From an uncultured Coriobacteriaceae bacterium (GTDB lineage Bacteria > Actinomycetota > Coriobacteriia > Coriobacteriales > Atopobiaceae), in assembly GCA_902803315.1 (NCBI GenBank), contig CADCPM010000088.1:1-64000 (forward strand): DNA of 64,000 bases. The letters are read 5' to 3'. Made by a program: the position numbers and the translations under genes. Numbering within the stretch: the first letter of the stretch is position 1; the number at the start of each line of letters is the position of its first letter. Shown piece by piece: positions 5,523-61,254 of the stretch. A model generated the notes under the pieces. The model searched no databases and was not told where the DNA came from. It saw only the letters and a list, made by a program, of their open reading frames with translations.

Positions 5523-7595
5523 CTACAAGCTGTCTACCTTCTTTTCGTGCTTATCGCGCAAATCGGAGAGCCGCTCACCTCGGTATGTAAACCATTCAGG
5601 ACCACGATATCTGCCATTGGGGTCGTTGTTCAGTATTGCGGCGAGGCGCGAGGTGCTGTACTTGTGCCCATCGTACAAAACCTTATTGTCGTCTCCTACG
5701 GTGGTGCATACGATGGAGTCATTGCCAACGAAGTGGATTTCTGATTCTGGAGGTATGCCAGCCATCTTGAACTTGAACGGCGGACGTCTCCTTGACGCGA
5801 TTTCGTTGTCAGTGTCTTTATTTGCATTATTACTACTTGCGTAATCGACAACATCCGACTGACCGTCAGCCTTGCGCTCCTGCGCTGCAAGCATGTGTTT
5901 GCACATGATGATGCCTTTGAGCACTTCGTTGGGCATCGTGGAAGACTTTGCAGTGGCTGGAGTGCCGCCTAAGCGCATGTACACATCGCATGCAGTGTCG
6001 GAAGCGGTACCGATCAGCTCGTCACTCAGTTTGCCTAAATCGACGTTTGCGAGGTCCTTGAGATCAAGTTTCGTCTTGGGTTTAGGTACTAGGAGATGTG
6101 CCACTCCCATCAACACATAAAACCTTACGTCGCTGATCTCGGACCTCGTGAGATTAGGTCTAACCCTTGGCAAGCGTAGCATGACGGACTTACCCATAGC
6201 TGCGGCTTTGTAGTAAGCCTCAAGCTCTCCGTTCTTCCTGAAAAGCTGGTCGTACTTCCTTTCGTCTGACAGGAGTGTCGAGGGTCGCGCGCGGGCTTGG
6301 TTGGGCTGGTTAAGAACGATGGACATTAGACACTGGGCGAGGAAAGATATGCTGACTATCTCCTCAGGTTTCTTACCTTGGTTCTTGTAGTAGTTTTTTC
6401 TGCGCTCATAGTAAAGACCCTTTGGCTTTAGGTAGAGCTCAATTTGATGATGGATCGGATCAGTAGCCCTGAGCGAGGTCTTTTTTACGCTTGTCTGACT
6501 ATTGGTGGCCATGATGACCTTGCTTCTGGTGGCGTCGTTGTCAGGGATGAGAATACGAACCATGACCTGCCTGTTATCGGGATCGTCCGAGGATCTTCTC
6601 TGCATGTAGCCGTAGATTTCGTATGTCGTTTGCAGACCGTTGACGATGCGTGGCTCCTCCATGCGCACCACGGAGCCAGTCGCTTGGACAGCACTTGAGG
6701 CCAAGATGGTCACCCCGTTGTTTAGCCACCAGAAGTCTTCCCCAGACGGGTTGTCGAGAGTGTTCCGAATCGCTTTGTTCACTGCGACATTTCCCTCATA
6801 GTCGCGTATGTTCGCCTCAAGGAGGTAGCTTCTTAGTCTTCCCTTGTCATCGACGAGGAAGTTGTGGAAGTCGCTCAGCGATACGAGGTCGAAGAAGTCG
6901 CTCCTCTCCGGAACGCTAGCGTAGGGGCCAGAGAACTTGATGCACAAGGCGCTCTCGTCTGGTGGGAACCACATCTCCATCAGCTGGTCAGCACCGACTA
7001 GGTCAGCCTGGACGCTAAACGAGTTGGCATTGACCTTCTGCTTCGCGTACTCGACAAGCTCGTCGGACTGCCTTAGCACCCCGTTGCTCGGTTGGCCAGC
7101 GTTTGCAACATACACGAATCGCATCATTGCTTGCGCTCCTTTGAGCGAAGCAGTCTTTATAGCTTCGCGTATGCGAGTGAATGCTTCGAGTACCTGCTCC
7201 GAATACTTTCCATCGAGTGAGTCTATGGGAACGTTGTAGTCCAGCAGGTCGTTACATGCGTCTTTCCACTTGAGGAACACGTCTTCAGTAAAAGATTTGC
7301 TCGTCTTGCACTGGATGATGACGATCTCGATTCTGGAGCCGCGTCTGATGACTGACTCGATGCTAGCATCCTCGCCTAGGAGTAGCTCGTTGCACAGAAC
7401 ATAGATCGAGTCGCATCCGCCATCTAGCGCACCACCGAGAACACCGTTCTCGATCTCATCGTCGTCCAGATCGTATTGTGTCATTACCTTTGAAGACGCA
7501 AGGAACTCGAAGAATGTCGCTTTATCGTCGTATTGCGACTGATCATTATATTCTTGTTCCACGAGTTGATTTATGAGTATCTGGTTGTTTGTCAC
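5523..7595 (-). CDS. AIPR family abortive-infection protein with nuclease-like N-terminus
   Basis: A 690-residue protein of the AIPR family (abortive infection phage resistance). The family signature is clear in the middle: EDFWWLNNGVTILAS followed by EPRIVNGLQTTYEIY at about residues 290-350. Near the N-terminus, LDGGCDSIYVL (about 58-67) followed by IEIVIIQCKTS (89-99) resembles a PD-(D/E)xK nuclease core, with Asp62 and Gln95-x-Lys97 as candidate catalytic residues. The last 90 residues resemble a DUF4357/RAMA-like domain (IPPESEIHF, a short strand, SRLAAILNN, WFTYRGERLSDL). The start is GTG 7595 after AAGGCGG with 7-base spacing. It is a single gene with no partner on its strand nearby; the next minus-strand gene encodes a DUF2971 protein. 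Confidence 0.8.
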   Translation of the reverse strand: MTNNQILINQLVEQEYNDQSQYDDKATFFEFLASSKVMTQYDLDDDEIENGVLGGALDGGCDSIYVLCNELLLGEDASIESVIRRGSRIEIVIIQCKTSKSFTEDVFLKWKDACNDLLDYNVPIDSLDGKYSEQVLEAFTRIREAIKTASLKGAQAMMRFVYVANAGQPSNGVLRQSDELVEYAKQKVNANSFSVQADLVGADQLMEMWFPPDESALCIKFSGPYASVPERSDFFDLVSLSDFHNFLVDDKGRLRSYLLEANIRDYEGNVAVNKAIRNTLDNPSGEDFWWLNNGVTILASSAVQATGSVVRMEEPRIVNGLQTTYEIYGYMQRRSSDDPDNRQVMVRILIPDNDATRSKVIMATNSQTSVKKTSLRATDPIHHQIELYLKPKGLYYERRKNYYKNQGKKPEEIVSISFLAQCLMSIVLNQPNQARARPSTLLSDERKYDQLFRKNGELEAYYKAAAMGKSVMLRLPRVRPNLTRSEISDVRFYVLMGVAHLLVPKPKTKLDLKDLANVDLGKLSDELIGTASDTACDVYMRLGGTPATAKSSTMPNEVLKGIIMCKHMLAAQERKADGQSDVVDYASSNNANKDTDNEIASRRRPPFKFKMAGIPPESEIHFVGNDSIVCTTVGDDNKVLYDGHKYSTSRLAAILNNDPNGRYRGPEWFTYRGERLSDLRDKHEKKVDSL

Positions 7596-7881
7596 AGGTA
7601 TACCGCCTTATCCCCATTGATGAAATCCGTGGTTAGTCGCTGCTTAGTCACTATCCACGACGAGAGTCATCGTTTCTTTGTTACACGGAATGATGTCAGT
7701 ATGCATAGCCGTTCTGACGGTTGCTCTGCCCATCATTTATTCTAGCGTTCGTCATGCATGTGTGTAGTGATTCCATCGGAGGGAGGGCTGGTTGGATGCG
7801 AAGAGCGCGTGCTATCAGGACTTAGTGATCTTGAGAAAAAAAAGACTCACTTTCGAAGCGGAAAAGAACATTACTGTTTTG
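7596..7881. other. Intergenic stretch, probable AIPR promoter region
   Basis: About 285 AT-rich bases between two minus-strand genes. It must hold the promoter of the AIPR gene. I cannot pick a unique promoter and see no tRNA or repeat. Confidence 0.3.
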
Positions 7882-17564: not shown

Positions 17565-17620
17565 AATCGACCTCCTTTCCTAGAATATCATCATAGCATG
17601 TTATAGGTATTCAGAGGAGG

Positions 17621-17850
17621 GTCCACGCCCCGCGTCCGCGACGCGTCCCGCAAGCGGCGTAACAGCTCACGCCCCCGCGCCTTCACCGGACCCGCAAGCG
17701 GCGACTCACGAAGTGAGCGAGCAAAGCGAGCGTGGAGCCGCGCGCGGGTCCGGCGAAGGCGCGGGGGCGTGAGCTGTAACCATGCGGCGACTCACGAAGT
17801 GAGCGAGCGCGGAGCCGCATGCGGGACGTGTTGCGGGCGCGGGACGTGAC
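17621..17850. repeat. Hairpin repeat family 1, two copies nested
   Basis: The family-1 core (CGGCGACTCACGAAGTGAGC onwards, ending GCGGAGCCGC) occurs twice. An inner element (17660-17780) has complementary arms of about 30 bases ending in (G)TAACAGCTCAC / GTGAGCTGTAAC. It lies inside an outer element whose left arm is 17621-17659 and whose core and right arm are 17781-17850. The outer arms pair with each other with a few mismatches. GCGGCG occurs on both sides of the inner element, as a target duplication would. The block lies between the divergent EAL gene and der; der expression signals must lie to its right. Confidence 0.75.
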
Positions 17851-17967
17851 CGGACGCCAGAAGCGGATGCCCGTTTGTTTGCTCCCTATGTGTGTATGGA
17901 GTACTTGTCGGCCAGCGTGCTAAAATCAGGGCTTGAACGTTTGTTTTTAACGATGAAAGGCGGCCAT

Positions 17968-27937: not shown

Positions 27938-27976
27938 GGGACCCCAACAAAGGGACTGTCCCTTAGTCGGGGTCCC
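27938..27976. repeat. GGGACTGTCCC-centred palindrome
   Basis: A 19-bp inverted repeat around a single central T, from GGGACCCC to GGGGTCCC, with the inner core GGGACTGTCCC. It shares this core with 38945-38982 while its outer arms differ. It lies between a terminator and the end of a minus-strand gene. Confidence 0.6.
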
Positions 27977-34583: not shown

Positions 34584-34607
34584 AAGGAAAAGGCCGACCC
34601 TCACGGC

Positions 34608-34707
34608 AGCCCCGCGCCCGCGACGTGACCCGCAAGCGGCGACTCACGAAGTGGGCGAGCGATGCGAGCGCGGAGCCGCCTGCGGTCGCATCGCGAGCGC
34701 GGGGCGT
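34608..34707. repeat. Hairpin repeat family 1 copy
   Basis: The conserved core (CGGCGACTCACGAAGTG onwards to GCGGAGCCGCC) lies between complementary arms at 34609-34634 and 34681-34706 (outermost CCCCGCGC / GCGCGGGG). The arms pair with several mismatches. It lies 25 bases after the DUF1667 stop and before the YdcF-like gene. Confidence 0.75.
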
Positions 34708-34801
34708 GGACGTGCGGGGGCGGGCATCAGCCCCTGCTTCACAACACTGCTTTGCGCCTTGGTGCGGCACTCCTGTATCATGTCATGCATAGGAGGGTTT
34801 T

Positions 34802-44054: not shown

Positions 44055-45755
44055 ATGATGGGCGGTGCGATGCGTCGGGAGTCACGAGCAGAGGAAATCG
44101 CGCGAGAGATCTTGTCGAGCGAGCGTTATGCCAACGCGCGTGCGTTCGAGGATCGCATCTATAGGGACGAGCCTATTTTGCGTACGGGAGCGCAGGCGTT
44201 TAATGGCTCTGCACAGAGGGGAAATGTCACTGACGTGAGGGGCACAGGCCCCGACGGAAGGGTCTTTCGTCCTAGGCTCTCCCAAGATACAGCTCTGCCC
44301 ACCGAGTACAGGCGCATGCGCGCAATCGCCCGAAAGCAAGGCTTGCGAGGTGGGCATGCGGGTCAGTCGGTGGGCAAGGCGCACCTCTTCTACCTGCAGG
44401 GCAAGTATATGGAGGACTTCGAGGAGGACTTTGACGGCCAGACGTACTTCGATCGCTACTACCCCTCCTATGAGGAGATGAGTAACTACCAACTACGGTG
44501 CTATTTCTCGTGGAGAACCCGCTATCGTGCGGGGCAGACCCCAGACGCGCCGCTGTCCTTCCTGTTCGTGCATGCCTACGAGCTTCTGTGCGGCATCGGA
44601 ACGAAGCCGGGCCAGGAGGGCTTCGAAGCACTGAGTGACTTTGCTGCTGCGTATGCGGGCGCGAGTCCCTCTTTTGACATGCACATGAAAAGATGGCGCT
44701 TTGACTACGCCGTGTTCTACGGCCTGGATGGTGCCGCCGCGTTGGCCGGCTCCTCGTCGTTTCCCTATGAGGCCGTTTCGTTATTGCATAGGGCGGAGGA
44801 CGCCCTTTTGGCAAGAGGATGCCCAAAAGAATGGCCGCAGATCGATGACGGCGAGCTGCCTGGCGCTGGCGATCTGTTAGATGCGCTGTGTGCACTCTCG
44901 CGCTATAGAGCCGAACGCTCGCGCTTCGTAAAGGCGCATAGGGAAGACGTCGCGGAGGTGAGCGCACGTGTATTCGGGTGCATGGTGACTCATTGCAAGA
45001 AGAGGCGAAAGATGGGATACGTCCAAGGTATCTTTGGATCGCCCACGCTCAGGTACTACACCATGTTCGCTTCGGCGCTCTTTTGGACGCCCGTGCCGCA
45101 TTCCGATGCGACCTATGTAATAAGCGACAGCGAAAAATTCGTGTGCGAGAATGGTATGTGGTGGCGCGAGCTCCCATGCCGTCGTGCGGAAACCAGCAAG
45201 GAGATCGGTGCGCTTCTTCATGCTATAGACGCGCGGTTGCGTGTGGCAACGGGCGACCCCCATCCGCTCAAGGAGCGGTCTTTGCCCAAGTATCAGGCGA
45301 AGTTTGTGGACGAGGGGATTGCCGCCCTGCTCGCGCGCAAGAAGGCCGAGGAGGCAGCGCGCATACGAATAGACCCCTCTCGATTGGCAGGCATTCGCTC
45401 TGCTGCCGCGCGCACGCGCGAGGCGCTGCTTACCGACGAGGAGCGTGCGGACGATGCGGTCTTGTCCGTTGCCGAGAGAGCGCCTCAGCCCCAGCCTAAG
45501 CCTGAACTTGAGCCCAAGGAAGAGGCAAGAGGTGCGGACGATGCCCTTGGCCTGTCTGGCGAGCAGTTGGAGCTCTTAGTAAGTCTCCTGGCGGGAGAGG
45601 TACCGCAGACAAAAGACTCGCTCTTCCTCACGTTGGCCGTCGATGCCATAAACGAGGCGTTTTTGGATGTGGTTGGCGACACGGTGGTGGAGTTCGACGG
45701 AGAGACACCCGTGCTTGTGGAAGACTACGCGGACGACGTGCGGGCTGCCCTGTAA
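44055..45755 (+). CDS. TerB_N/TerB_C domain protein
   Basis: A 566-residue soluble protein. The TerB_N domain occupies about residues 75-250, recognised by MRAIARKQ, a FEEDFDGQTYFDRYYPSYEEM block and LRCYFSWRTRYRAGQ with FLFVHAYELL. The TerB_C segment covers the last 75 residues (LTLAVDAINEAFLDVVGDTVVEFDG). A Pro/Gln/Glu-rich linker lies at about 475-490. Comparative work on tellurite-resistance proteins placed TerB_N/TerB_C proteins in DNA-processing gene sets with helicases and ATPases, as here. ATG 44055 lacks a strong site; ATG 44070 is an alternative. It is followed, across a family-1 repeat, by the BrxD-like ATPase and helicase genes. Confidence 0.75.
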   Translation: MMGGAMRRESRAEEIAREILSSERYANARAFEDRIYRDEPILRTGAQAFNGSAQRGNVTDVRGTGPDGRVFRPRLSQDTALPTEYRRMRAIARKQGLRGGHAGQSVGKAHLFYLQGKYMEDFEEDFDGQTYFDRYYPSYEEMSNYQLRCYFSWRTRYRAGQTPDAPLSFLFVHAYELLCGIGTKPGQEGFEALSDFAAAYAGASPSFDMHMKRWRFDYAVFYGLDGAAALAGSSSFPYEAVSLLHRAEDALLARGCPKEWPQIDDGELPGAGDLLDALCALSRYRAERSRFVKAHREDVAEVSARVFGCMVTHCKKRRKMGYVQGIFGSPTLRYYTMFASALFWTPVPHSDATYVISDSEKFVCENGMWWRELPCRRAETSKEIGALLHAIDARLRVATGDPHPLKERSLPKYQAKFVDEGIAALLARKKAEEAARIRIDPSRLAGIRSAAARTREALLTDEERADDAVLSVAERAPQPQPKPELEPKEEARGADDALGLSGEQLELLVSLLAGEVPQTKDSLFLTLAVDAINEAFLDVVGDTVVEFDGETPVLVEDYADDVRAAL

Positions 45756-45791
45756 GGCCAAATGGCGACAGGTCCGAAGTTATGCGTTATT

Positions 45792-45903
45792 GCTCACGTT
45801 TCCGCGCTTGTCGCCCGGCCCGCAAGCGGCGACTCACGAAGTGGGCGAGCGAAGTGAGCGCGGAGCCGCATGCGGGCCGGGAGACAAGCGCGGAAACGTG
45901 AGC
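45792..45903. repeat. Hairpin repeat family 1 copy with nearly perfect arms
   Basis: Arms 45792-45824 and 45870-45903 are complementary over 33 bases with about one mismatch, around the conserved core. The outer part (GCTCACGTTTCCGCGC / GCGCGGAAACGTGAGC) is not shared with other copies. It separates the TerB gene from the ATPase gene by about 250 bases. Confidence 0.85.
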
Positions 45904-46009
45904 CATTCCCAAGCCATCCCCAACCGTCGTCGCATGGCATATATTGGAAAAACAGATTGCGAACATGTGTACGTGGTGATATACTGATTGCCCGTCTAAG
46001 GAGAAGCCC

Positions 46010-47353
46010 ATGGCAAACCCACAGCAACATCCCCATGTGCCCAAGCGCATAGCTACCGTGCTCATAAACTCCCTCAAAGGTGGAGTGGTGCCGCGGATCG
46101 GCCTGCCCTACATAACGGTGGGGCGCGAGGCCGAGATCAGTGCGCTGCTGCGCGACCTGGACATCGTTGCCGACGGCGGAGCGTCGTTTCGTTTCGTGGT
46201 CGGTCGATACGGCAGTGGCAAGAGCTTTCTTCTGCAAACTATCCGAAACCATGCGATGGGGAAGAACTTCGTGGTGGCAGATGCCGACCTCTCGCCCGAG
46301 CGTCGCCTGCAGGGTGGAAAGGGGCAAGGCCTTGCGACCTATCGCGAACTCGTTCGTAACCTCTCGACGAAGACGCGGCCCGAGGGTGGGGCGCTCACGC
46401 TCGTGCTCGACCGCTGGATAGCAGGCATACAGTCTGCCGTTGCCCAAGACGGCATTATGCCCAACGATCCGGGGTTCGATGGCGAGGTGGAAAAGCGAAT
46501 CTATGCTGTCATTGACGATCTGCAGCAGTTGGTCCACGGCTTCGATTTCGCGCGGCTCCTGGCTGAGTACTACCGCGCACATGTGGAGGGGGACGACCAA
46601 ACCAAAGCCTTCGTTACCAAGTGGTTCCGTGGCGAGTACCGCACCAAAACGGAAGCGAAGGCAGAGCTTGGTGTCTCCTGCATCATTACGGACGACGACT
46701 GGTATGACTACATAAAGCTTCTTGCCCGCTTTTTGGTTGGCGCAGGTTATGCGGGGCTTGTGGTCCTCGTGGACGAGTTGGTTAACCTCTACAAGATTCC
46801 GCATGCCATTGCGCGCCAGTATAACTACGAGAAAATTCTCACCATGTACAACGACGCCTTGCAGGGCCGTGCGGAGCACTTGGGCATCATCATGAGCGGA
46901 ACGCCGCAATGTGTGGAAGACCGGAGGCGCGGCTTGTATTCGTACGAGGCGCTGCGCTCGCGCCTTACCCAGGGGCGCTTTGGTCGCGAAGGCATGCTGG
47001 ACCTTTTGGCGCCCGTCATCCGACTGCAGCCCCTTACGCATGAGGAGCTGCTCGTACTGGTGGAGAAGCTTGCGAACATCCATGCCGAGCTCTTTGGCTA
47101 CGAGAGAACGCTCACAGAGGAAAACCTCGTTGAGTTTCTCCAGCTCGAGCTCGGACGCGTGGGAGCGGACTCCCACATTACCCCACGCGAGGTTATCCGC
47201 GACTTCATAGAGATGCTCGACATCATGTGGCAGGACCCCACGGTAACGGTGGCGGGACTCCTTGGCTCGGGTAGCTTCGCGCACGCCGTTCCAGATGGTG
47301 ACGGCGGCGATGGGGGAGACGTGGCCCCAGAATATGCCGAGTTCAAGATCTAG
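46010..47353 (+). CDS. BrxD-like ATP-binding protein (DUF2791)
   Basis: A 447-residue P-loop ATPase of the DUF2791 family, to which BrxD of BREX phage-defence systems belongs. Walker A is VGRYGSGKS at residues 64-72 and Walker B is LVVLVDELVNL near 249-259. The C-terminal half has GTPQCVEDRRRGLYSYEALRSRL and a RLQPLTHEELLVLVEKL block, typical of the family. AAGGAGAAGCCC precedes ATG 46010. The helicase gene starts 25 bases after the stop. No PglX methylase, PglZ phosphatase or BrxC is present, so this is not a standard BREX locus. Confidence 0.8.
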   Translation: MANPQQHPHVPKRIATVLINSLKGGVVPRIGLPYITVGREAEISALLRDLDIVADGGASFRFVVGRYGSGKSFLLQTIRNHAMGKNFVVADADLSPERRLQGGKGQGLATYRELVRNLSTKTRPEGGALTLVLDRWIAGIQSAVAQDGIMPNDPGFDGEVEKRIYAVIDDLQQLVHGFDFARLLAEYYRAHVEGDDQTKAFVTKWFRGEYRTKTEAKAELGVSCIITDDDWYDYIKLLARFLVGAGYAGLVVLVDELVNLYKIPHAIARQYNYEKILTMYNDALQGRAEHLGIIMSGTPQCVEDRRRGLYSYEALRSRLTQGRFGREGMLDLLAPVIRLQPLTHEELLVLVEKLANIHAELFGYERTLTEENLVEFLQLELGRVGADSHITPREVIRDFIEMLDIMWQDPTVTVAGLLGSGSFAHAVPDGDGGDGGDVAPEYAEFKI

Positions 47354-47378
47354 CAAGGCAGAGGAGGTGTTGTAGCCC

Positions 47379-49745
47379 TTGTCTGACGTGTTCGGTTGCT
47401 ATGCCCCTTTTGTGCAGGACTTCATATACGAGCATGACTGGGAATCGCTCCGTGGCATTCAGGTGGCGGCAGGGGAGGCCATCTTCAACACGGACGCAAA
47501 CGTGTTGCTCACGTCATCCACGGCATCGGGCAAGACGGAGGCGGCGTTCTTTCCCATACTCACGCTCTTTGACGAGGAGCCGCCTGCCTCAATAGGCGCC
47601 ATATACATCGGGCCGCTCAAGGCCCTCATCAACGACCAGTTCTATAGGCTCACGGACCTCTGTCGCGAGGCAGACATACCGGTATGGCACTGGCACGGCG
47701 ATGTGAGCGCCTCGCATAAGGCGCGGCTCATGAAGAAGCCGAGGGGAATACTCCAGATAACGCCCGAGTCGCTGGAGGCAATGCTTCTGCATAGGCACTC
47801 TGCCATCCCCAAGCTCTTCTGCGATCTGAGGTTCGTCGTTATCGACGAGGTGCATTCGCTTTTGCGCGGGGACCGTGGCGGGCAGACGCTGTGCCTCATA
47901 CAAAGGCTCTCTCGCATGGCGGGTTGCAATCCGCGGCGCATAGGCCTTTCCGCCACCATAGGCGACCCAGAGGCATGCGGCAGACTCCTCTCGCAGGGCA
48001 CGAACCGCATTACCGTGGTTCCTCGCGTTGAGCCCGGTAACCAAACGTGGCGCATTTCGATGGAGCACTTCTATACCTACGGCACGCAGGCGGCGGAGGC
48101 CTTTGGCGGCGTTCGCACGGGCTCGGGCATGGTGCACGTTGACGCCATAGTGGAAGAGGTGGATGCGCAGGCCAAAGGCCTCCCAGACCCTGCGTCTGCA
48201 GGCATCGCCGATACCGTTGAGGTGTCCGACCCGGCGAGTACGGAGCTTTCCCTCGCGCTCGATGGGCAGGGTTCCGATTCCGCACCCGTCAACGCAGATC
48301 CCGGCATAGGGTACATCTACGAGCACTCAATGGGTCGCAAGTGCCTCGTGTTCTCCAACTCGCGCGAGGACTGTGAGGCGGTTACCACCACGCTGCGCAG
48401 CTATTGCGAGGCGAACGGCGAACCCGATCGTTTCCTCATTCACCACGGCAACCTGTCGTCCAGCTTTCGCGAAACGGCCGAGGACCTCATGCGTGACGAC
48501 GAGCTGGCCCTTACGACGTGCACTACGGCAACGCTGGAGCTGGGCATAGACATCGGCAGGCTGGAGCGCGCGTTCCAAATTGATGCGCCGTTTACGGTGA
48601 GCGCTTTTTTGCAGCGTATGGGCCGTACCGGAAGGCGCGGGGCCCCTCCCGAGATGTGGTTTGTCATGCGCGAGGACCCGCCTGAGCCAAGGGCGATGGT
48701 AAGCGAGACCGTTCCCTGGAAGCTCTTGCAGGGCATCGCGCTCGTGCAGCTCTACGTGGAAGAGCGCTGGGTCGAGCCGCCACGGCTGGACCGCTTGCCC
48801 TACAGCCTGCTCTATCATCAGACGCTTGCCACCCTTGCCTCCAGTGGGGAAATGTCTCCGGCGGCCCTGGCTGGCAGCGTCCTCTCGCTTGCGTACTTCC
48901 ATCGTATCGACCAGGACGACTATCGTGTGCTGCTTCGCCATCTGATCGAAACCGACCACATAGAGCGCACCGAGACGGGAGGGCTTATCGTCGGCCTTGC
49001 GGGAGAGCGCGTTACCAACAACTTTCGCTTCTACGGCGTGTTCGTGGAAAGCGAGGAGTACACGGTGCGCAGCGAGTCCCAAGAGCTTGGCACGGTGGTG
49101 CAGCCGCCTCCCGTGGGGGAGAAGCTCGCAATCGCCGGCCACGTGTGGATCGTGGAGGAGATAGACCACAAGCGTCGCCTGGTGTATTGCACGCAGGTGC
49201 GAGGAAAGGTCCCGGCCTACTTTGGGGAATGTCCCGGAGACATAAACACCCGCATCCTGGAGCGCATGCGAGAGGTGTTGCGTGAGCATCGTGACTATCC
49301 GTACCTGCGCAACAACGCCCGCGCCCGACTGGCGCACGCGCGTACGGTTGCCGTGAACGCAGGCATTACCCAAGAGCCCCTGATCAACCTCGGTGGCGAC
49401 ACCTGGGCCCTGTTTCCTTGGCTGGGTACGTATGCCTTCCTGGCGCTGGAGCGCGTAATCAAGCTGCGGCTTCCAGCGCGGCTTGGCATCAAAGGCGTGG
49501 ACGTGAGCAGACCCTACTACATCCAATTTCGCATGAAGGCGGACGGCAGGGAGTTCATGGATGAGCTTCGGCAGGCATTCGAGCAGCAATTCGACCCGAT
49601 GGAGCTGGTGTATCCCGCCGAAGTGCCAGTTTTCGACAAGTACGACGAGTATCTTCCCGAAGAGCTCGTTCGAAAGGGGTTCGCCTATGGCGTGCTTGAC
49701 GTCGAGGGGGCTCGTGAGCGCGTGCTTGGGTGGATGAGTGGCTGA
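47379..49745 (+). CDS. Lhr-like/BrxHI-like DEAD/DEAH helicase
   Basis: A 788-residue superfamily 2 helicase. Motif I is TASGKTEAAF at about 48-57, motif II is VIDEVHSLLRGDRGG at about 156-170, motif III is SATIGD, and motif VI is QRMGRTGRRGAPPEM near 411-425. The order and the GRGxQ-like loop after the DEVH box match Lhr-type helicases, among them BrxHI. A long C-terminal region carries no named domain. TTG 47379 lies 11 bases from GAGGAGG. It is the last gene of the TerB/ATPase/helicase cassette and is followed by a family-1 repeat. Confidence 0.82.
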   Translation: MSDVFGCYAPFVQDFIYEHDWESLRGIQVAAGEAIFNTDANVLLTSSTASGKTEAAFFPILTLFDEEPPASIGAIYIGPLKALINDQFYRLTDLCREADIPVWHWHGDVSASHKARLMKKPRGILQITPESLEAMLLHRHSAIPKLFCDLRFVVIDEVHSLLRGDRGGQTLCLIQRLSRMAGCNPRRIGLSATIGDPEACGRLLSQGTNRITVVPRVEPGNQTWRISMEHFYTYGTQAAEAFGGVRTGSGMVHVDAIVEEVDAQAKGLPDPASAGIADTVEVSDPASTELSLALDGQGSDSAPVNADPGIGYIYEHSMGRKCLVFSNSREDCEAVTTTLRSYCEANGEPDRFLIHHGNLSSSFRETAEDLMRDDELALTTCTTATLELGIDIGRLERAFQIDAPFTVSAFLQRMGRTGRRGAPPEMWFVMREDPPEPRAMVSETVPWKLLQGIALVQLYVEERWVEPPRLDRLPYSLLYHQTLATLASSGEMSPAALAGSVLSLAYFHRIDQDDYRVLLRHLIETDHIERTETGGLIVGLAGERVTNNFRFYGVFVESEEYTVRSESQELGTVVQPPPVGEKLAIAGHVWIVEEIDHKRRLVYCTQVRGKVPAYFGECPGDINTRILERMREVLREHRDYPYLRNNARARLAHARTVAVNAGITQEPLINLGGDTWALFPWLGTYAFLALERVIKLRLPARLGIKGVDVSRPYYIQFRMKADGREFMDELRQAFEQQFDPMELVYPAEVPVFDKYDEYLPEELVRKGFAYGVLDVEGARERVLGWMSG

Positions 49746-49799
49746 GTAACCCGTGCACAGGGCTAAACCCTTGTCGCTTGCCGAAATATGGGATTTGGC

Positions 49800-49920
49800 G
49801 TTACAGTTCAACCCCCGCGCCTTTGTCCTGACCGCAAGCGGCGACTCGCGAAGTGAGCGAGCAATGCGAGCGCGGAGCCGCATGCGGGATCGGCGAAGGC
49901 GCGGGGGTGTGAACTGTAAC
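49800..49920. repeat. Hairpin repeat family 1 copy
   Basis: Arms 49800-49836 and 49883-49920 (outermost GTTACAGTTCA / TGAACTGTAAC) flank the conserved core. The outer arm resembles the inner nested copy at 17.66-17.78 kb (GTAACAGCTCAC), so these two are close relatives. Confidence 0.75.
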
Positions 49921-50055
49921 GATTTAGTACATCGGATGGCACGATGTGTCCTTCTGTGTCGGTGCGCCAAGCGCTATTATGTTTCAATAGAGGCCATAGC
50001 CATTACGTAAGGGCCGTAACTATCCTCGCAGAATCGCGAGGGAATGGAGGTTGAT

Positions 50056-51375
50056 ATGGGACTCTTGAAGGCGGGCATCGGCGCTGCTTCCAGTGCTCTC
50101 TCGGATCAGTGGCGCGATTACTTCTATTGCGATTCGCTCTCGGCGGACGTGCTTATGACCAAAGGCCGTCGTCGCGCAAAGAAGGGCACGAACAAGGGCA
50201 GCGAGAACATCATCACCGATGGCTCCATCATTGCGGTGAACGAGGGCCAGTGCATGATCGTCGTGCAGCAGGGCGAGATCATCGAGGTATGTGCCGAGGC
50301 AGGCGAGTTCGTGTTCGACAACAAGACCGAGCCTTCGATTCTTTATGGTGGCCTTGGTGAGGGCATAAAGAACACCTTCGCGCGCATAGGCTATCGCTTT
50401 ACCTTTGGCGGAAACGAGGCCAACGACCAACGCGTGTACTTCTTCAACACGAAGGAGATCATGGGCAACAAGTTTGGCACGCCCACACCGGTGCCCTTCC
50501 GCGTGGTGGACATGAACATCGGCCTGGACACCGACATCTCGGTGCGCTGCAACGGCGAGTACTCCTATAAGATCGTCGACCCGTTGCTGTTCTACAAGAA
50601 CGTGGCGGCCAACGTCGAGGGCGACTTTACGCGCGACCGCATAGACAGCCAGCTCAAGAGCGAGTTCCTCACTGCCCTCCAACCTGCGTTCGCAAAGATC
50701 TCCGAGCAGGGCGTGCGCTACAGCGCGGTGCCTGGCCACACCATGGAGCTTGCGCAGGCCATGCGCGAGGTGCTCTCGCCCAGTTGGACCGAGCAGCGCG
50801 GCATCGCCATCGAGGCCGTGGGCATCAACTCCATCTCGGCCAATCCCGAGGACGAGGAGCGCATAAAGACACTGCAGATGACGGCCGTTATGCGCGATCC
50901 CAATATGCGTGCCGCCAATCAGAGCATGGCGACTGGCGATGCCATGCGCACCGCGGCAGCGAACGAGAACGGCGCCATGATGGGCTTCATGGGCATGAAC
51001 ATGGCCGCAAACGCAGGCGCAGGCATGAACCAGCCGGGCATGTATGACGGCGTTGGCCAGCCCTATCAGTATCAGAACGCCTATAACGTGGCGAGCAACG
51101 GCGGCTTTGGTGGCCCGCAGGGTGGCGCCGGCGCCTGGAAGTGCGAGTGCGGCACGCAGAACACGGGAAAGTTCTGCATGAACTGCGGCAAGCCGAAGCC
51201 TGCGCCCCAGCCCGCAGGTGGCTGGGCTTGCCCCAAGTGCGGTGCGCAGAACTCCGGCAAGTTCTGCATGGAGTGCGGCACGCCCAAACCGACCGACGAC
51301 GGCTCCTGGACCTGTGAGTGCGGCACCCAGAACAAGGGCAAGTTCTGCATGAACTGCGGCAAGCCACGCGCATAA
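50056..51375 (+). CDS. SPFH-domain protein with three C-terminal zinc ribbons
   Basis: A 439-residue protein. The N-terminal part is a band-7 SPFH domain of the YdjI-like type (residues about 1-280: GSENIITDGSIIAVNEGQ, then FGTPTPVPFRVVDMNIGLDTD). A Met/Gly/Ala/Asn-rich linker follows (about 285-355). Three near-identical zinc ribbons end the protein (C.CGTQNxGKFCMxCGxPKP repeated). It may form membrane-edge scaffolds like other SPFH proteins, with the ribbons for partner binding. GGAGG precedes ATG 50056. It lies between the helicase gene and priA with no operon partner. Confidence 0.8.
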   Translation: MGLLKAGIGAASSALSDQWRDYFYCDSLSADVLMTKGRRRAKKGTNKGSENIITDGSIIAVNEGQCMIVVQQGEIIEVCAEAGEFVFDNKTEPSILYGGLGEGIKNTFARIGYRFTFGGNEANDQRVYFFNTKEIMGNKFGTPTPVPFRVVDMNIGLDTDISVRCNGEYSYKIVDPLLFYKNVAANVEGDFTRDRIDSQLKSEFLTALQPAFAKISEQGVRYSAVPGHTMELAQAMREVLSPSWTEQRGIAIEAVGINSISANPEDEERIKTLQMTAVMRDPNMRAANQSMATGDAMRTAAANENGAMMGFMGMNMAANAGAGMNQPGMYDGVGQPYQYQNAYNVASNGGFGGPQGGAGAWKCECGTQNTGKFCMNCGKPKPAPQPAGGWACPKCGAQNSGKFCMECGTPKPTDDGSWTCECGTQNKGKFCMNCGKPRA

Positions 51376-53981: not shown

Positions 53982-54083
53982 GGCGCCCCGTGCCCGCGAT
54001 GCGGCCGCACACGGCGACTCACGAAGTGAGCGAGCGAAGCGAGCGCGGAGCCGCGTGCGATCCGCATCGCGGGCGCGGGGCGC
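53982..54083. repeat. Hairpin repeat family 1 copy, with an adjacent partial copy
   Basis: Arms 53982-54010 and 54055-54083 (outermost GGCGCCCCG / CGGGGCGC) flank the core. A second core follows at about 54100-54135 but degenerates after AAGTGAGC and lacks its right arm. The locus lies just after the priA stop. Confidence 0.75.
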
Positions 54084-54147
54084 GAGCTGGGGCTCGCACA
54101 CGGCGACTCACGAAGTGAGCAAGAGATGCGAACGCGATGTTGTCAGC

Positions 54148-60543: not shown

Positions 60544-60557
60544 CGACGCCCATACCC

Positions 60558-60615
60558 TCGCACCTGCGATGCGGCCCGCAAGCGGTGACTTACGAAGTGG
60601 ACGAGCAAACCCGAG
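60558..60615. repeat. Hairpin repeat family 1, left-half remnant
   Basis: CACCTGCGATGCGGCCCGCA and a mutated core (GCGGTGACTTACGAAGTGGA) are present, then the sequence breaks off before the right arm. It lies 15 bases after the fusion gene. Confidence 0.55.
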
Positions 60616-61112: not shown

Positions 61113-61139
61113 CGGGCAGTCACCCCGCGTGTTGGAGTA

Positions 61140-61254
61140 GCTGTTCGCGCCCCGCGCTTGCGCACCCCCGCAGGCGGCGACTCACGAAGTGAGCGAGGGA
61201 AGCGAGCGCGGAGCCGCATGCGGGGGTGCGCAAGCGCGGGGTCTGAGCAGTAGC
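61140..61254. repeat. Hairpin repeat family 1 copy
   Basis: The 23 bases next to the core (CCCCGCGCTTGCGCACCCCC... and complement) pair perfectly; outer parts GCTGTTC / GAGCAGTAGC pair less well. The core differs from others at a few bases (GAGGGAAGCGAG). It lies between the rpmB terminator and the Asp23-like gene. Confidence 0.78.

Follow-up and report, generated by a model that had tools for sequence, protein, structure and literature searches.

A family of hairpins with a constant apex and copy-specific arms in Atopobiaceae, described as a palindromic mobile element

ERIC and REP-BIME palindromes are intergenic, occur in high copy number, form long hairpins and are sometimes arranged in tandem. 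MITEs derived from the ISBst12 group of IS66-type elements are short and non-coding, with terminal inverted repeats and an 8-bp target duplication. In ISDge4, an IS66 element of this group, the ends are GTGACTACTCAGCA / GTAACTGCTCAGCA and the direct repeat is 8 bp long (PMC12898284), and Paracoccus IS66 elements have been tabulated with 8-bp repeats (PMC3281130). In inverted repeats subject to template switching (quasipalindromes), switching between the arms homogenises the arms and inverts the spacer (PMC8604942), and multi-base compensatory changes result (PMC8794818). Those two papers treat short repeats within coding genes of yeast and the stems of RNA genes.

The hairpins described here are a non-coding mobile element of about 120 bases, present in about 190 copies in a rumen bacterium. 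Like ERIC and REP-BIME palindromes they are intergenic, high-copy, long and sometimes in tandem, but their sequence is unrelated, their arms vary between copies, 8-bp duplications are present and there is no link to a RAYT gene. With MITEs of the ISBst12 group they share size, lack of coding capacity, terminal inverted repeats, the 8-bp duplication and ends resembling those of ISDge4, the same end adjoining IS66 remnants in sister species. Unlike those MITEs, the entire element is a single hairpin, the centre rather than the ends is conserved in most copies, and the autonomous partner was not found in this genome. Arm homogenisation, multi-base compensatory change and spacer inversion are shared with quasipalindromes, here in a dispersed family of mobile elements whose apex is 42 nt long. 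The preferred reading, with a probability of about 0.6, is a palindromic MITE moved in trans by an IS66-type transposase, its arms being kept complementary by replication template switching.

Copy number, anatomy and copies in the window

The core was searched for in G000, an Atopobiaceae draft genome (87% complete), and in relatives, the carriers being uncultured Atopobiaceae/Coriobacteriaceae MAGs. G000 yielded 190 core matches, against 0 for a reversed-pattern control. The close relative G001 (MAG RGIG5826, sheep jejunum) yielded 165 copies and G004 (RUG11733) 47; the remaining genus members were mostly without core or gave chance-level matches only. Within the window (the whole 64-kb stretch of DNA that was analysed), eight matches to the core 20-mer with at most 3 mismatches were found at 17699, 17785, 34637, 45827, 49839, 54012, 54101 and 61175, where chance predicts none, and a decayed core remnant was additionally present at about 60583. 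The first-pass annotation had listed at least seven loci sharing a core. The core was confirmed, but the copies at 17785, 54101 and 60583 proved partial or interrupted, and the 17.7-kb locus is one copy inserted within another (Table 1). Viral contigs that were searched held no exact core match. The window gave no Rfam match at the gathering score, and sub-threshold matches in a permissive search were generic long hairpins.

Anatomy was derived from 168 regular copies, taken from about 1.2 Mb of G000 sequence plus 0.84 Mb from G001/G004. A single copy is a hairpin of about 120 bp, with the 42-nt core as apex and two arms of about 39 nt. The core consensus is CGGCGACTCACGAAGTGAGCGAGCGAAGCGAGCGCGGAGCCG, with a mean identity of 96.5%. 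Following searches with either half of the core, the other half was nearly always intact and intermediate decay was almost absent; core conservation is therefore not due to ascertainment alone.

Table 1. Copies of the hairpin element in the 64-kb window
Feature	Position	Strand	Remarks
Copy under study, aged, 5' end GTTATTGCTCACG	45786..45909	+	core 45827-45868
42-nt constant core (apex) of the copy under study	45827..45868	+	
Complete 122-bp copy, both end repeats GTAACAGCTCACGCCC ... GGGCGTGAGCTGTAAC	17659..17780	+	nested in older copy
Older host copy	17619..17869	+	5' arm about 17619-17658; rest, with core, from 17785 past the insert
Aged copy, imperfect arms	34607..34710 (outer limits approximate)	+	core 34637-34678
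Complete 121-bp copy, ends GTTACAGTTCAACCCC / GGGTGTGAACTGTAAC	49800..49920	+	
Aged copy	53983..54085 (outer limits approximate)	+	core 54012-54053
Partial tandem copy	54092..54135	+	5' part of core from 54101
Truncated remnant, decayed core CGGTGACTTACGAAGTGGACGAGC, without 3' arm	60556..60608	+	
118-bp copy, ends GTAGCTGTTCGCGCCC / GGGTCTGAGCAGTAGC	61137..61254	+	core 61175-61216

The copy under study is flanked by a TerB-domain gene and a BrxC/D-family ATPase gene and lies upstream of a sigma-70-like promoter (45957-45985). The orthologous G001 site is also occupied, with arms that have changed yet are complementary. The neighbours in 44055-51372 are a TerB_N/TerB_C protein, a BrxC/D-family ATPase, a DEAD/DEAH helicase and an SPFH/Band 7 protein, a possible defence-type cluster. 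At 17.7 kb, between divergent genes, the inner copy has the target duplication CAAGCGGC (17651-17658) / CATGCGGC (17781-17788), and the orthologous G001 site is without either nested copy. The G001 site corresponding to the 34.6-kb copy is without core. A decayed 8-bp duplication, GATTTGGC (49792-49799) / GATTTAGT (49921-49928), flanks the 49.8-kb copy; in G001 (L120, about 7150-7600), repeated GTTTGCTGG / CACACTGTGG units form the intergenic region replacing this element.

Insertion and the putative IS66-type partner

Recognisable ends GTTACNGTTCANACCC and their complement are kept in 39 copies, spaced mostly 117-124 bp apart. These two-ended copies are flanked by an 8-bp direct repeat (5.46 of 8 positions matching versus 2.13 when shuffled, z=15.2). 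Other duplication lengths between 3 and 12 gave no signal in the same 39 copies, and in copies without recognisable ends duplication was not above chance. The comparison of orthologous sites covered about 1.2 Mb per genome. Of 40 such sites in G001/G004, the core was absent from 21, present in the same orientation at 13 and in the opposite orientation at 6; among the sites empty in G001 the cleanest is at L205:3978, with GTGAGGCC/GTGGGGCC. Pair 90 has its own perfect duplication in G001, AAGCATAG on either side, so that some opposite-orientation cases are independent insertions. Two-ended copies with 8-bp target duplications, combined with some empty sites in a relative and the nested copy at 17.7 kb, identify a non-autonomous mobile element (MITE), being short and non-coding, with terminal inverted repeats, a target duplication of fixed length and empty sites in relatives. 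One of the roles first proposed, a small palindrome moved in trans, fits these observations. Acquisition of the arms from the target by fold-back was rejected, as the arms are absent from the empty sites.

The element is most likely a non-coding MITE of about 118-124 bp moved in trans by an IS66-type transposase of the ISBst12 group, which would recognise the ends GTTACNGTTCANACCC and generate the 8-bp target duplications. An exact copy of the 16-bp end, outside hairpin elements, adjoins an IS66-family (PF03050) transposase remnant in G011 and a related transposase remnant in G010, G011 and G010 being sister species. The hairpin element has the traits of the IS66 / ISBst12 group, namely an 8-bp duplication and GTNAC-type ends. 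A 111-bp element in G001 carries the same ends and a duplication, GTTCCTCT, around an unrelated interior. The hairpin element of about 120 bp encodes no IS66 transposase and is thus at most an IS66 derivative, not an IS66 element. Since the transposase gene was found neither in G000 (87% complete draft) nor in G001, we infer the partner from these ends and remnants.

Movement of a REP-type element by a RAYT (Y1) transposase is very improbable, and the link was rejected. Of 16 genus genomes, 15 encode Y1_Tnp proteins (G000 has four), but these are equally present in genomes without copies, regardless of copy number. An 8-bp duplication is not expected of Y1 enzymes, and one is observed here.

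Arm pairing and its maintenance

In the 168 copies, arm pairing exceeded that of shuffled partners over about 39 nt of either arm, beyond which it was at background (median extension score 19.5 for the own partner versus 4 for a shuffled partner). Together with the 190 genome copies, this bears out the initial description: the repeats form a genuine family in which the core is constant and the complementary arms are specific to each copy. Entropy in arm columns -9 to -39 is 1.2-2.0 bits, though these columns are paired. In 52 of 73 intact G000 hairpins an arm was closer to its own partner than to any other copy's arm, the opposite of what a plain MITE predicts; the two arms of a copy thus evolve together. 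Arm covariation also survived comparison at orthologous sites. Neither end is recognisable in 85-89 copies, in which the duplication is lost; there, pairing erodes from the tips inward, with the inner stem still above controls and the core intact. Equal length and inward erosion suggest that these copies arose by the same insertion route.

Once a copy has inserted, its two arms would form an inverted repeat, and the strand being synthesised at replication may switch template between them, copying changes in one arm to the other and sometimes inverting the apex; the end repeats and target duplications would erode as a copy ages. Such arm-to-arm copying would let arms drift far between copies, yet stay complementary.

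The main rival is a functional RNA hairpin in transcribed intergenic regions (an mRNA stabiliser, or a processing or pausing site) in which selection restores pairing; it is considered rather unlikely. G·U is acceptable in an RNA hairpin, whereas A·C is not. Isolated arm mismatches comprised 44 G·T and 41 A·C, with 27 and 26 in copies sense with the flanking genes and 5 and 5 in other genera. C-G and G-C pairs swap freely at identical stem positions. In the hairpin upstream of hisF (here and below, hisF and leuC-like are the author's reading of the encoded peptides), the sister species L330/L335 have near-identical arms, flanks 92-98% alike and a 44-nt centre that is the exact reverse complement (44/44); the apex is likewise inverted in pair 71, with homologous arms. 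Equal G·T and A·C counts, exact apex inversion and free C-G/G-C exchange point to pairing kept at the DNA level rather than in RNA. Of the alternatives originally offered, selection on a hairpin or its mechanistic production, the second fits better than RNA selection. In the core-stem interior G·T exceeded A·C (about 69 versus 30, summed), which may reflect shared ancestry or RNA selection. The transition/transversion contrast of compensated changes was left unused, its counts being inherited within subfamilies.

The strand symmetry of the mismatches and the inverted apex speak for DNA replication over selection on RNA, and the family shows the signature of template switching, arm homogenisation with spacer inversion, from which we infer the cause of arm matching. 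Apex inversion alone could be explained by recombination between the arms. At L150:6988 and L099 (G001), nearly identical flanks and arms enclose cores with several base differences (CTCGCGAAGCGAGTGAGC v CTCACGAAGTGAGCGAGC), which suggests conversion or template switching inside the core.

Covarying base pairs are widely held as proof of a working RNA. Because the arms most likely stay complementary through copying during replication, their covariation is poor evidence for a functional RNA in this case. In hundreds of copies, of which some occupy known orthologous sites, strong covariation is combined with strand-symmetric mismatches and apex inversion. The family therefore offers a natural test bed for measuring bacterial template switching and a warning for covariation-based RNA discovery.

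Gene context, orientation and the apex

Gene context was obtained with our own codon-usage gene caller (85% coding density). Intergenic positions account for 181 of 183 classified copies. The placement directly behind a stop codon that was first described does not hold throughout, the 17.7-kb locus lying between divergent genes. Divergent-gene gaps hold 55 of the 181 classified sites and convergent-gene gaps 6. Between co-directional genes, 103 copies are sense and 17 antisense, the p-value being nominal as orthologous copies among them are non-independent. The bias is equally strong in young two-ended copies (16:3). Where flanking genes oppose the local majority strand, the core follows the flanking genes in 10 cases versus 1, which contradicts replication direction as the sole cause of orientation. 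At divergent sites the G-rich strand is favoured (30 versus 12).

Sense hairpins start a median of about 37 nt past the upstream stop, with the core at 76 nt, a position that would suit ordinary transcription terminators with a conserved loop. The hairpins lack a trailing T-run (3-4% versus 2% at random), and convergent sites are far fewer than divergent ones; terminators are hardly credible. They had been discounted from the outset for the missing U-run, rightly so, and the transcription-end role suggested at the same time is not supported.

For the RNA rival speak the sense bias between co-directional genes, its tracking of flanking genes over the local majority strand, a core that barely decays, and recurrence of the hairpin upstream of hisF across genera. 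Against it, roughly one copy in three is located between divergent genes. A strand that follows the flanking genes (103 versus 17; 10 versus 1) also counts against the preferred reading of a MITE with template switching, as neutral drift predicts no such bias. The ends being symmetric, the bias must act through the core, which makes a process linked to transcription, or selection acting on the apex, likely. Some selection on the apex or the apex strand is likely.

Covariance model R1 was built from 34 hairpins, of which the members from G000's genus were picked for good pairing. With no more than 47 candidates scored in any one genome, it retrieved the same apex on unlike stems, with at least 46 matches in G006 (same genus) and, in other genera, at least 34 in G028, at least 24 in G058 and a few in several further genomes. 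Many hairpins, with differing complementary arms, immediately precede hisF in roughly a dozen genomes; a second recurrent location is beside a leuC-like gene. The apex pattern of the wider set is GC-GA-N-TCACGAAGTGA-GCGAGCGNNGCGAGC-GC-N-GA-GC, and the two N positions adjoining the GA steps covary (C-G 23, G-C 5, A-U 4), R1 pair counts leaning towards structure. GCGAAGC, contained in the apex, is a mini-hairpin DNA with a Tm of 78 C (PMC4686876).

A DNA-level site, with a host nucleoid or gyrase factor recognising the apex as cruciform or single strand, agrees with an apex conserved across genera in either orientation, with its GNA-loop mini-hairpins, as in d(GCGAAGC), and with strand-symmetric mismatches. 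The patchy distribution, from 0 to about 190 exact-core copies within one genus, counts against this quite unlikely reading. More speculatively, and still doubtful, a self-folding DNA apex of about 40 nt might promote fold-back and arm copying, so building and maintaining its own stem, and have been captured later by an IS66-type element. The apex (stacked GA pairs and GNA-loop mini-hairpins) would then be the only conserved sequence, on any complementary stem and in either orientation.

A plasmid search gave only short partial matches to the GCGAAGCGAGC-like apex, among them matches in haloarchaea and Aeromonas. A similar GAGCGAAGCGAGC apex tops hairpins on plasmids of unrelated taxa, L382 and L383 from haloarchaea and L381 from Aeromonas, possibly by convergence on a very stable mini-hairpin. 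In G006, three tandem repeats of about 130 bp, each with a core, lie directly upstream of rpsL (L039, about 1500-1800). In G050 (L044, reverse strand, about 156), a hairpin of this type falls in frame within a long ORF and contributes residues such as SHEVSDERSEERR to the tail of the protein, which is acidic and rich in Pro and Ala.

The window holds, at 27952 and 38958, a second family of hairpins, built on the core GGGAC(A/T)GTCCC with flanks that differ between copies; it was also seen in L009, L099 and L161. Its matches number 61 over 1.19 Mb of G000 sequence and 46 over 1.18 Mb from G001. It occupies some sites where the other species carries the first family, and in L009 one of its hairpins holds an element of the first family in its loop.
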